NCBI GenBank assembly: GCA_944326425.1
Contig: CALVDX010000002.1
Coordinates: 1-64,000, forward strand
Direction: 5' to 3'
DNA from: Candidatus Gastranaerophilales bacterium
GTDB taxonomy: Bacteria; Cyanobacteriota; Vampirovibrionia; Gastranaerophilales; Gastranaerophilaceae
DNA: 64,000 bases
In this document: in pieces, positions 26,383-63,361 of the stretch
Position numbering within the stretch: the stretch's first letter is position 1
Layout: each line of letters opens with the position of its first letter
Notes under the pieces: model-generated
Databases searched by the model: none
What the model was told of the DNA's origin: nothing
What the model saw: the letters and a program-made list of their open reading frames with translations, nothing else
Position numbers and translations under genes: made by a program

Positions 26383-27411
26383 CTATCGTTTTGTGCCGTC
26401 AGGGTTGTACTCTTGTTGGCTAACCTGATTGACTGCTTCATCATACTCAAAAACTGTATAATAATTTACGCTGCCGTCGGAGTTATAGGATATGTCCCGC
26501 GTTCTGTTTCCGTTCGCATATTCATAATCATCGAAGTACCGCACACTGCCGTCGGAGTTATAGGATATTGCCCGCGTTCTGTTTCCGGCGCCGTCATATT
26601 CAAAATCATAGAAACAATCCACGCTGCTGTCGGAGTTATAGGATATTTCCCGCGTTCTGTTTCCGTTCGCATATTCATAATCATCGAAGTACCGCACACT
26701 GCCGTCAGAGTTATAGTATATTTCCCGCGTTCTGTTTCCGGCGCCGTCATATTCAAAATCATAGAAACAATCCACGCTGCCGTCGGAGTTATAGTATATG
26801 TCCCGCGTTACGTTGCCGGTCTCATCAAGGATTCTGGAAATCCTGCCGTTTTTAGTGTACTCTATTGTTGTTCCATCAGGCTGGAGTACTGATTTACCCG
26901 CATTTTTCTTGTCAGAAATTGAGTATTTCATCAATTCTTGCTGTGAAAGTTTTGCCGGAGGTGTCTTTGCCGATGGCGGCGTAACTGCAGGGGGCGGAGT
27001 TGTTGGCTTTGGAGGTACTGTCGGGTCTGTTTCCTGCACCGGTGCTGCAGGGGGTGTTCCCTGTGCGGGCGCTGCCGGTGGTGTACCTTGCGCTGGGGCC
27101 GCGCCGCCCGCTTTCTTAAATCCCATCGCCGTATATATCTTATCGATTTGTTCTTTCGTTAGATTTATCACATCGCCAACTTTAATAATATAGCTGTTTC
27201 GCCAGCCTGAACTTGTTTTATCATTCCCGCCGGAATACAATTGTTCGCCTTCTGCTTTCTCTTCTGATTGGATTTCATCAAAAACGCTAAGTACATTATT
27301 CCAGTTTACCTTGCTTGCGTCGCCTTCATATCCCGCCTCTTTGGCTTTGTCCAAAAATATGTACGTTAAGCCTCTGTCTCCGTTCTTTACCGTATAGCTA
27401 AAATCTGTCAT
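26383..27411 (-). CDS. YD-like repeat protein with LysM-like start
   Basis: The 342-residue protein has three parts. Residues 1-90 look globular, with SYTVKNGDRGLTYIF at the start reminiscent of LysM. Residues 100-155 form a Pro/Ala-rich linker with PAQGTPPAA repeated. Residues 170-342 carry five to six repeats with the core YNSDGSV and ENGNRTR-like ends, similar to YD/RHS repeats. Two types of repeat alternate (26 and 25 residues), making a 51-residue, 153-bp higher-order unit. AAAGG lies 11 nt before the ATG. No signal peptide is visible. Its promoter lies in the 27459-27915 module that also precedes the gene at 50882-51394. Confidence 0.8.
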   Translation of the reverse strand: MTDFSYTVKNGDRGLTYIFLDKAKEAGYEGDASKVNWNNVLSVFDEIQSEEKAEGEQLYSGGNDKTSSGWRNSYIIKVGDVINLTKEQIDKIYTAMGFKKAGGAAPAQGTPPAAPAQGTPPAAPVQETDPTVPPKPTTPPPAVTPPSAKTPPAKLSQQELMKYSISDKKNAGKSVLQPDGTTIEYTKNGRISRILDETGNVTRDIYYNSDGSVDCFYDFEYDGAGNRTREIYYNSDGSVRYFDDYEYANGNRTREISYNSDSSVDCFYDFEYDGAGNRTRAISYNSDGSVRYFDDYEYANGNRTRDISYNSDGSVNYYTVFEYDEAVNQVSQQEYNPDGTKR

Positions 27412-27500
27412 CTTGTTTACTGCCTTTCATATTTTTTTAGTACTACTTGTAATACTTCTTACGGCAGCTTTTTTCAAAACTTTAGCCCACCCCACCACAT

Positions 27501-27525
27501 CATATCATATCATATCATATCATAT
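27501..27525 (-). repeat. Five copies of a 5-bp tandem repeat (CATAT)
   Basis: CATAT is repeated five times without error. On the minus strand it reads ATATG and begins about 6 bp downstream of the predicted -10, at the expected transcription start. Confidence 0.85.
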
Positions 27526-27530
27526 AGGGG

Positions 27531-27559
27531 ATTATATCAAGGTTTCAGACCCATGTAAA
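27531..27559 (-). promoter_or_regulatory. Promoter of the YD-repeat gene
   Basis: On the minus strand TTTACA (27559-27554), 17 bp, and TATAAT (27536-27531) match a sigma-70 promoter. The predicted leader is about 115 nt long and begins in the ATATG repeat. Confidence 0.7.
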
Positions 27560-27960
27560 TTCATCTTTACATTTCGTTACATTGGAACATTTGTTAAGTT
27601 TTTGTTACAATCCCCCCTCGCCCCACGCACACTGTCCGGTTAAACTCAATTTGTCACCCTGAACTTGGTTCTTGCTCACTCGCGTTAAACGAGTCTACGG
27701 GCAAAGGCTCACGCTTTGCCCTCCGCTCTCTGCTCGTTCGCGCTTCAGCATCTTACCAACATAGCGTTATACTTGATTTTTGGTATGATCCTGAACAGCT
27801 TGAAAATCGGACTAAAACAAACTGTCTACAAAAACACATAACTAACGATTTTCTACGCTTTCAGGATGACAGTACGCAAGGCGCAGGGAATAATTGTTGT
27901 TGTCGGACGACCTATTACTGGACGGATTTTCAGCACGGCGATGTTTCCAATATACCAATA

Positions 27961-50881: not shown

Positions 50882-51394
50882 TCACTGCTTATTCTTATCG
50901 GAATCTATAATTTTCTTTATATCATCCTTAAACTGCTGCAGATCAGCCGGGTTTTCTATTAAATATTTAAGAAGAGCCTTATCAGAAGCTTCCTCAGCTT
51001 TATCGAGAAGAGCCTGAAGATTGCCGGCGTTATCATCAATTTCATCCACAATCTGTTTCAGACTATCAGTCTTAGCATCGGAATTTTGTTTTACTAACTT
51101 TGCCAGTGATTTTAGGGAGTCAGCATTCGGGAATACAATCCCCAGAGTACCGGTCGGAAATAATTTTTTTACTGCAGAATCTTGCTTTTCAGCCGACGCC
51201 GGAGTACCTGATTCTCTCACAAAGCCGTCTCCAACATTTCCCCAGTTTGCATTGTTGTTCAATCCGCTCTGTAATTCAATGTTTCGTTTACGGCATTCCG
51301 CCTCCAGTCTGTCCGCTGACATACTGTCTACAATTTGTGGGCTGAGACCGGCTTTTATCAACTCCTGTCTCATCATTTCTACTTGTCCGCTCAT
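50882..51394 (-). CDS. Helical protein of unknown function (170 aa)
   Basis: The protein is predicted mostly helical: residues 1-45 include a SAP-like pattern (MRQELIKAGLSPQIVDSMS, then LEAECRKRNIELQ), and the C-terminal half is Asp/Lys/Leu-rich. No signal peptide. AAAGGA 10 nt upstream supports the start. Its promoter lies in the second copy of the 460-bp module. No family is recognised; the SAP-like reading is weak. Confidence 0.65.
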   Translation of the reverse strand: MSGQVEMMRQELIKAGLSPQIVDSMSADRLEAECRKRNIELQSGLNNNANWGNVGDGFVRESGTPASAEKQDSAVKKLFPTGTLGIVFPNADSLKSLAKLVKQNSDAKTDSLKQIVDEIDDNAGNLQALLDKAEEASDKALLKYLIENPADLQQFKDDIKKIIDSDKNKQ

Positions 51395-51455
51395 ACACTA
51401 TCCGTCCTTTCTTTTTTCTTGTATTTTTACTTCATAGTTTTGCAGATAGTATTTA

Positions 51456-51923
51456 TTACGGCACCTTGTTTCAAAACTTTAGCCCACCTCACCACATCAT
51501 ATCATATCATATAATATCATATAGTGGATTATAACAAGGTTTTAGCCTTTTTAAAATTCATCTTTACATTTCGTTACATCGGAATATTTGTTAAGATTTC
51601 GTTACAATCCCCTCCCTCGCCCCACGCACACTGTCCGGTTAAACTCAATTTGTCACCCTGAACTTGGTTCTTGCTCACTCGCGTTAAACGAGTCTACGGG
51701 CAAAGGCTCACGCTTTGCCCTCCGCTCTCTGCTCGTTCGCGCTTCAGGGTCTTACCAACATGGCGCTATACTTGATTTCTGATAAGATCCTGAACAGCTT
51801 GAAAACCAGACTTAAAAACAAACGCTCACAAATAACACATAAACTAACGATTTTCTACGCTTTCAGGATGACAGTACGCAAGGCGTGGAAATAATTGTTA
51901 TTGTCGGACTAAAGTCCGACCTA
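51456..51923. repeat. ~460-bp duplicated promoter module, copy 2
   Basis: This matches 27459-27915 along its length. The CATAT tract (51498-51522) has five units with one changed to AATAT. The minus-strand TATAAT (51533-51528) is kept, but the -35 is weaker. The palindrome GGGCAAAG/CTTTGCCC lies at 51698-51720. Confidence 0.9.
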
Positions 51924-62086: not shown

Positions 62087-62707
62087 TTATGCAACCGCAT
62101 CCAGTTGTTTTAGGTCATATTTTTCTTTAAGGTCTTTTTTCCAGCCGTCGCTCAGTTCAATACAAAATGCACCGGCAGCGCCCAGAATAGCCGCATTTAC
62201 TCCTGATGTAATATATTTTATTACTTTATCATTTGATGCCATATCACCAAACCATGTATCAGGTTTCAATTTTAATGCTTTCGCTATCTTAGGTCCGGCA
62301 AGCACGCCAAGAGCTGTAACACCAATAAACGTTGCCCACTCCGCAATCTCACGATTATTCTCTTTCCTTTTGTATTCTTTCCTGTAGTCAGCAATTTTTT
62401 TCGGTGAACCTTCATAAACCTTTGCTTCTGATAAAGTTCCGTCTTTTAGGATACTTACATACTCTTTAGGGTCAGCTTTAGCCGTCTCTGCTTTTGCATT
62501 TGTCTGTTCTGATTGTGCTGCTATCTGTGTTTTATCTTCATTACCTTTAAAACTTACATTATTCCCGCCGTAATAGTACGGATTTTGATAGTTCCATAAC
62601 GACATATTCCACTGATAGGGATTTTGATACCCCATCATTGAATAATTCATCATAGGATAACTGTAATTATCCATTGACATCATGTTATAATAACTGTTCC
62701 AGTCCAT
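62087..62707 (-). CDS. Unknown protein with Tyr/Met/Asn-rich N-terminus and FKG motif (206 aa)
   Basis: Residues 1-50 are dominated by Tyr, Met, Asn, Gln and Trp in short repeats (YQNPYQW and YQNPYY), then SFKGNED follows near 53-59, then a charged stretch. Two hydrophobic segments at about 126-144 and 170-184 suggest membrane contact. AGGG 6 nt upstream supports the start. No family is recognised. Confidence 0.7.
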   Translation of the reverse strand: MDWNSYYNMMSMDNYSYPMMNYSMMGYQNPYQWNMSLWNYQNPYYYGGNNVSFKGNEDKTQIAAQSEQTNAKAETAKADPKEYVSILKDGTLSEAKVYEGSPKKIADYRKEYKRKENNREIAEWATFIGVTALGVLAGPKIAKALKLKPDTWFGDMASNDKVIKYITSGVNAAILGAAGAFCIELSDGWKKDLKEKYDLKQLDAVA

Positions 62708-62821
62708 AATTAACCCTACCTTTATTAATACTTACTAACCTGAAAAATGAATGTGTGTATATTAATAAAGTTTTTTTAGAGCCAAGAATTGCCAATCCTA
62801 AAAAAGCATGTTTACATTTCT

Positions 62822-63361
62822 TTACATATTTTTATACATATTGGTGCATAATGCTTCAAAAAGCTGCATCGTTGAGGATTTCGGGAATTTTTTTATAAAA
62901 TTAATTACAGCGTTTTCAGGAACTTTAAATGTTGAAACAAGCATTTTATTAAACTCGTCTACCGCTTCCTGAGAACCTTCTTTTTCTACTTTCTTAAAAG
63001 CTTCTCTGATTTTAAACAATTCTTTGTTATCAAGAAATACTCCGCCGCAGTTATAGCATTCATCAATCATAACTTCTTTTCTGATGTCGTTATAGTGTCT
63101 GACCATTTTTGTTCCGCATACAGGACACATACGGGGTTCTGAAGCATCAACTTCTTCAAACTTTTTACCTTTTATACTTTCTAAAATAGGAGTAATATCT
63201 TCCTGCGCCTCGTCAAATTTTTCCAATTCACGATTATCAAAATATATCCCGCCGCAGCCTTCAGTACAAACATCAATATTTATTCCTAAATCAGGAAAAT
63301 GTACCTTTGTCATTGCATTGCGGCATGCAGGACAGTTAATTATATCAAGATTATCAGCCAT
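62822..63361 (-). CDS. Zinc-ribbon (zf-TFIIB-type) protein
   Basis: Two zinc-ribbon units are seen: Cys10/Cys13 with Cys32/Cys36, and Cys79/Cys82 with Cys102/Cys105. Each is followed by GG(I/V)(Y/F)(F/L)DN(R/K)EL, the PF13453 pattern. The C-terminal ~60 residues are helical. The role of the family is unclear. AAGGAG 6 nt upstream supports the start. Confidence 0.85.
   Translation of the reverse strand: MADNLDIINCPACRNAMTKVHFPDLGINIDVCTEGCGGIYFDNRELEKFDEAQEDITPILESIKGKKFEEVDASEPRMCPVCGTKMVRHYNDIRKEVMIDECYNCGGVFLDNKELFKIREAFKKVEKEGSQEAVDEFNKMLVSTFKVPENAVINFIKKFPKSSTMQLFEALCTNMYKNM

Follow-up and report, generated by a model that had tools for sequence, protein, structure and literature searches.

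RpaB and its kinase NblS are light and redox regulators of cyanobacteria. The RpaB box, HLR1, has the consensus KTTACAWW-N2-KTTACAWW (PMC13421787), and activating HLR1 boxes lie at positions -45 to -66 (PMC11633204). RpaB and NblS were noted in 2013 in the dark, non-photosynthetic Melainabacteria, where another function was thought possible (PMC3787301), and the hmwA promoters of Haemophilus influenzae contain 7-bp tandem repeats, the number of which sets the mRNA level (PMC2424069). RpaB/HLR1, sigma28 promoters and repeat-containing promoters are each already known; our literature search found no description of the promoter module reported here (module P) or of any RpaB regulon in Melainabacteria. 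We examined a window of 64,000 nucleotides (the whole stretch of DNA that was analysed) and the assembly to which it belongs, a Candidatus Gastranaerophilales MAG (2.01 Mb, 40 contigs, estimated completeness 99.99%). We consider it probable that P is a compound promoter cassette that defines a regulon of exported proteins under the control of RpaB and sigma28, a reading supported at the sequence level by the box, the promoter motifs, their fixed spacings, the downstream genes and the regulators encoded. Genome-wide counts come from searches for patterns, with the reversed patterns as controls.

BLASTN of the two places aligned window positions 27450-27908 with 51447-51909 at 423/465 identities (91%) and 8 gaps, and past the end of the match no similarity of coding sequence was found between both places. 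The preliminary description had reported a full-length match of 27459-27915 with 51456-51923, which agrees with this 91% identity over 465 bp, and it had correctly placed both copies directly 5' of minus-strand ORFs (26383-27411 and 50882-51394), each with a TATAAT (27531-27536 and 51528-51533). ORF 1 (342 aa, minus strand, 26383-27411), presumably driven by copy 1, combines RHS/YD-type repeats with DUF2963, and a protein search of the named genomes recovered no relative of it. ORF 2 (170 aa, minus strand, 50882-51394), presumably driven by copy 2, had no Pfam match or known domain; G006, G004 and its own genome (L019) contain paralogues of it. The downstream genes, described as unrelated, are so at these two places, but some genes behind P copies are akin to one another (L001/L009, L002/L019).

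A search of the 501-bp stretch against the whole assembly returned 42 matches, which were split on the query, read in gene direction, into two units that occur independently: P (310-470) and R (about 126-290). P is the gene-proximal part (~165 bp, window about 27450-27611), and the genome carries it 11 times; R, the gene-distal part (~300 bp, about 27612-27908), has ~30 copies, most of them without P. The two were joined at three loci, always with R on the upstream side of P, and two of these loci are in the window; therefore, the preliminary description had two of three P+R composites before it. The single duplication event that it proposed gives way to a module family that spans a taxonomic family and of which the two places are 2 of 11 genomic copies, while its view of a cassette copied without its gene holds, P being a promoter module ahead of unrelated genes. 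The combination box-N28/29-TATAAT was found twice in the window and in 0/100 shuffles, so chance is excluded.

R (27612-27908 at copy 1 and 51612-51909 adjoining copy 2, no strand assigned) is a dispersed, intergenic, imperfect palindrome (TGTCACCCTGAACTTG ... CAGGATGACA) with nested hairpins, which lies outside the promoter. It accounts for the palindromic element previously assigned to the module: this element is present in both places, but it belongs to a separate repeat outside the regulatory unit, and P does not need R. A mobile structure of its own, also considered earlier, was not seen in P, since the aligned copies have no terminal inverted repeats at the P edges, but R-type elements do have them. 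At L015, L016, L017, L020 and L021 we observed a MITE-like element of ~300 bp with imperfect terminal inverted repeats of ~26 bp (GGGATTTATATCACAGTTTACACTAAA) and the R palindrome inside.

The plan of P was taken from all genomic copies in gene direction and from 65 modules aligned on the -10 box: WWTGTAAM-N2-WWTGTAAM; N6; TTTnnA; a 17-bp spacer with GNCTGAAACC; TATAAT; NCCC; a pentamer array; a G-rich tract; a second promoter; RBS; ATG. The first promoter is TTTAMA-N17-TATAAT and the ATG lies about 95-190 nt past TATAAT. Copies lying mostly away from gene starts would have contradicted the preliminary description; all 11 genomic copies precede an ORF with an RBS, and so do nearly all of the 70 modules inspected in the genus and family, those at contig ends excepted. 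P modules are often found at contig ends, so some assembly neighbourhoods may be incomplete. Position-wise conservation in the 65 modules was concentrated on the box, TTTnnA, GNCTGAAACC, TATAAT and CCCC, and the discriminator after the -10 had C in 56-87% of modules at -6 to -3.

Copy 1 follows this plan on the minus strand with -35 TTTACA at 27554-27559, 17 bp from the -10 TATAAT (27531-27536), GNCTGAAACC at 27541-27550, the conserved CCCC discriminator adjoining the -10 (27527-27530), an array of 5.4 ATATG units at the predicted transcription start (27500-27526) and the G-rich tract ATGTGGTGGGGTGGG after the array (27485-27499). In copy 2, also on the minus strand, the promoter is TTTTAA-N17-TATAAT (51528-51556, -10 at 51528-51533), GNCTGAAACC lies at 51538-51547, and the array (51497-51523) consists of ~5 ATATG units, of which one is mutated. 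The preliminary description had one promoter per copy; we found two, the RpaB-box/TATAAT promoter and, behind the pentamer array, one of sigma28 type or, in other modules, of a third type. Among the 70 modules, the second promoter was TAAAGTTT-N11-GCCG in 31 (by regular expression), GCAATT ... CTTTA in 22, and was not recognised in 17; in both window copies it is TAAAGTTT-N11-GCCG.

The spacer element GNCTGAAACC was observed in all P modules and is conserved as strongly as TATAAT, with up to 1.95 bits per position. Its distance to the RpaB box (17 nt) equals that of the sigma28 -35 in the stand-alone sigma28 promoters (class A, see below), so it may act as a -35 for a different sigma factor or as the site of a second activator. 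We discarded a TyrR-like palindrome, TGTAAA-N6-TTTACA, since its second half coincides with the -35 and many copies have not kept that half.

The arrays of the 70 modules had from 2 to 13.4 units (mean 4.3), of ATATG type in 53 and TAGGA type in 12, and the pattern of array plus G-tract was confined to P modules (reversed control 0). Two substitutions and exactly one 5-bp unit separate the near-identical orthologues L006 and L073, and L008 has 13 units vs 2-3 in L069; close relatives thus differ by whole-unit steps, as is the case for phase-variable simple-repeat promoters. It could instead be that array and G-rich tract form a structured 5' leader, a hairpin or a protein-binding repeat, that controls the fate of the mRNA, and that the variation in repeat number is incidental. 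We regard this as rather unlikely: with CCCC in the transcript, the leader has a better fold than shuffled sequences (z -3.8 and -4.9), but the expected start leaves CCCC untranscribed and without it the leader reaches only z -2.7. Co-variation of CCCC with the G-tract was weak (24/5000 permutations reach the observed value) and became weaker in a thinned module set, and the count of perfect pairs was not above permutation (690/5000). The 5-nt period resembles the repeated triplets that TRAP binds; the leader had no match in Rfam at gathering score. An RNA hairpin of CCCC, array and GGGG was rejected as a candidate, since its energy is attractive but the co-variation weak.

The box of copy 1, TTTACATT-TC-GTTACATT (27566-27583, plus strand), is a candidate HLR1/RpaB box that matches the consensus with zero mismatches; relative to the start that TATAAT predicts, it is centred at about -50 and spans -59 to -42. 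When P is read in gene direction the HLR1 consensus is on the opposite strand. The candidate box of copy 2, TGTAACGAAATGTAAA (51563-51578, minus strand), has one mismatch to the 18-bp consensus. Exact HLR1 occurred four times in the window vs 0.02 expected, and the box core was found 81 times genome-wide vs 12 in reversed controls. The genome encodes an RpaB orthologue, which scored 357 bits against the NCBIfam equivalog NF045944 (cut-off 330 bits), and its recognition helix, DTRVVDVHISRLRSKLE, is identical in the RpaB of Prochlorococcus and Synechococcus and differs from those of the three other OmpR-type regulators of the genome. This protein has 99% identity to a Candidatus Gastranaerophilales MAG protein, 80-93% to other Gastranaerophilales and ~70% to Prochlorococcus RpaB. 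With four complete OmpR-type regulators encoded, the orthologue included, RpaB has alternatives, and WalR and its kin read similar TGTWAH repeats; the regulon could thus be real and its box be read by another member of the OmpR family, RpaA-like or PhoB-like. This is unlikely, because every specified position of HLR1 is matched with a 10-bp period and, among these four regulators, the cyanobacterial RpaB recognition helix is found only in L128. RpaB remains the regulator that we propose.

The sequence TAAAGTTT-N11-GCCG, the textbook one for sigma28, is exact in both window copies and has at least 30 exact sites in the genome; in copy 1 it reads TAAAGTTT-N11-GCCGTAAG (27458-27484, minus strand, among the exact sites listed) and in copy 2 it lies at 51455-51481 on the same strand. 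A FliA/WhiG sigma factor is encoded (TIGR02479, 233.7 against a cut-off of 189.6) and was above the cut-off in 53/59 relatives. By inspection of 74 box sites, we distinguished three promoter contexts. In class A, the box lies 5' of a sigma28 promoter, at 17 nt in 17 sites and at 18 nt in 4; the pattern box-N17/18-TAAAGWTT was found 22 times in the genome and in 36/59 relatives, with 0 in reversed controls. Class B is module P itself, with the box 28-29 nt 5' of TATAAT, and in class C the box is usually 16-18 nt 5' of G(C/A)AATT-N~17-ACTTTATA. The genome also has FlhA and eight flagellin-domain genes; the box was found upstream of two flagellin genes, neither of which has a clear sigma28 promoter beside it. 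A second FlhA-family match (G000:C1:111507-112520) covers only the C-terminal half and lies in a 493-aa frame.

The third promoter type, box-N16/18-G(C/A)AATT-N~17-ACTTTATA, was observed alone (window 62787-62830; L255, L265, L272, L300 and others) and, in some P modules, in the place of the second promoter. At the window site, a further perfect HLR1 box (62811-62828, plus strand) stands before GGCAATT ... ACTTTAT and an ORF of 206 aa (62087-62707). Class C proteins (L265, L268, L289, L304) frequently bear, close to the N-terminus, a short F-x-G/A motif (SFKG, AFEG, SFTG), which might be a sorting signal. The idea that a GCAATT-type second promoter indicates a genome without FliA failed, as G013 has FliA.

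Box-N28/29-TATAAT was present in 27/156 genomes, with ~85 matches vs 2 in the control, and these genomes all belong to one family (27/94 inside vs 0/62 outside). The non-fixed spacer was more alike within a genome (identity 0.78) than between genomes (0.68), a difference of 0.102 compared with 0.026 as the largest of 2000 permutations, and 33/67 modules had their nearest neighbour in the same genome vs 6.5 expected. The orthologues L003 and L074 have 96% identity in the leader but only 68% in the promoter spacer, a pattern that fits replacement with a breakpoint at the array. As judged from these alignments, P has been dispersed or homogenised, and its array changes by whole units between species. 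G072 has twelve box-TATAAT modules and its congeners G012 and G100 none matching the pattern, which may reflect a recent burst or a loss. That 460 bp were simply copied by R or by recombination, with P as passenger DNA of no shared regulatory meaning, is highly improbable and largely refuted, for although R is a repeat of ~30 copies, mostly without P and joined to it at three loci, most P copies lack R and yet all precede genes, conservation is restricted to promoter elements, and P is family-wide with strict spacing. Co-regulation of the genes behind P, which had been put forward for the two proteins of the window, now appears very likely.

The proteins behind P fall into ~45 unrelated groups. 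In a check of hydrophobic segments in 63 of them, one had a pilin-type N-terminus and most had no Sec-like signal; cysteine was rare (0.57%) in proteins downstream of P. A library scan of 62 proteins revealed EF-hand, LysM or YD/RHS repeats in a few, and a calcium-binding type III effector family gave weak hits. Because most lack Sec signals, cysteine is low and they would be co-regulated with sigma28 promoters and flagellins, we infer that the small target proteins are probably substrates of flagellar export or otherwise exported; export by the flagellar machinery is plausible. A divergent N-terminal domain (GxGIxxAI...SxW...YxGG...V.xG) seems to be common to L001, L009, L107, L127, L075, L322, L295, L305 and L108; for it, a model of low confidence (pLDDT 63.5) gave beta-alpha-alpha-beta-alpha, possibly a LysM-like fold.

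In the mechanism that we propose, phosphorylated RpaB would bind HLR1 at about -50 and activate the TATAAT promoter of the housekeeping sigma factor, and a FliA-type sigma factor would serve the second promoter downstream, so that a gene would be switched on both with the RpaB signal and with the late flagellar genes. Stand-alone sigma28 promoters would also be activated by an RpaB box 17-18 nt 5' of the -35. The first transcript would carry the array at its beginning, and the sigma28 transcript would skip it; the array length, changing by whole units, may tune the output of the first promoter. Duplication or gene conversion would spread the cassette within a genome and keep its copies alike. 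More tentatively, and with some doubt, a self-spreading cassette might pull unrelated genes into one exported RpaB repertoire, in which a hypermutable array at the start site makes the expression of each member adjustable, i.e. a contingency system at promoter level for a whole regulon. An HLR1-type switch before dozens of unrelated, probably exported proteins suggests a role of RpaB in lightless organisms, and the boxes before sigma28 promoters, flagellin genes and the cassette promoter offer a testable answer as to what RpaB does without light. If true, the RpaB-HLR1 pair would be older than the control of photosynthesis or be used outside of it. The findings also delineate a regulon of uncharacterised, probably exported proteins in a common animal-gut lineage and point to a variable promoter based on repeats.

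Compared with REP/MITE-type repeats, R is likewise an intergenic imperfect palindrome of ~30 copies, some of them in an element with ~26-bp TIRs, but R lies outside the promoter and P has no inverted repeats. With hmwA, P shares a short tandem repeat of variable copy number in the promoter or leader of a probably exposed protein; it differs in its 5-bp units at the predicted start, repeated before many genes in a family-wide architecture. As in class 3 flagellar promoters (sigma28/FliA), we found the consensus TAAAGTTT-N11-GCCGATAA and an encoded FliA-family sigma factor, whereas here a response-regulator box is added at a fixed 17-18 nt, the sigma28 promoter of P is the second of a tandem, and most targets are not flagellar structural proteins. 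Finally, the RpaB/HLR1 promoters of cyanobacteria (e.g. the PSI genes of Synechocystis) have the same 18-bp box ~50 bp 5' of a sigma70-type start, which in P is a predicted one, and an orthologous regulator with an identical recognition helix; in contrast, the host here is non-photosynthetic, the targets comprise flagellar genes as well as hypothetical proteins that are probably exported, and the box is coupled to sigma28 promoters and forms part of a multi-copy cassette with a repeat array.
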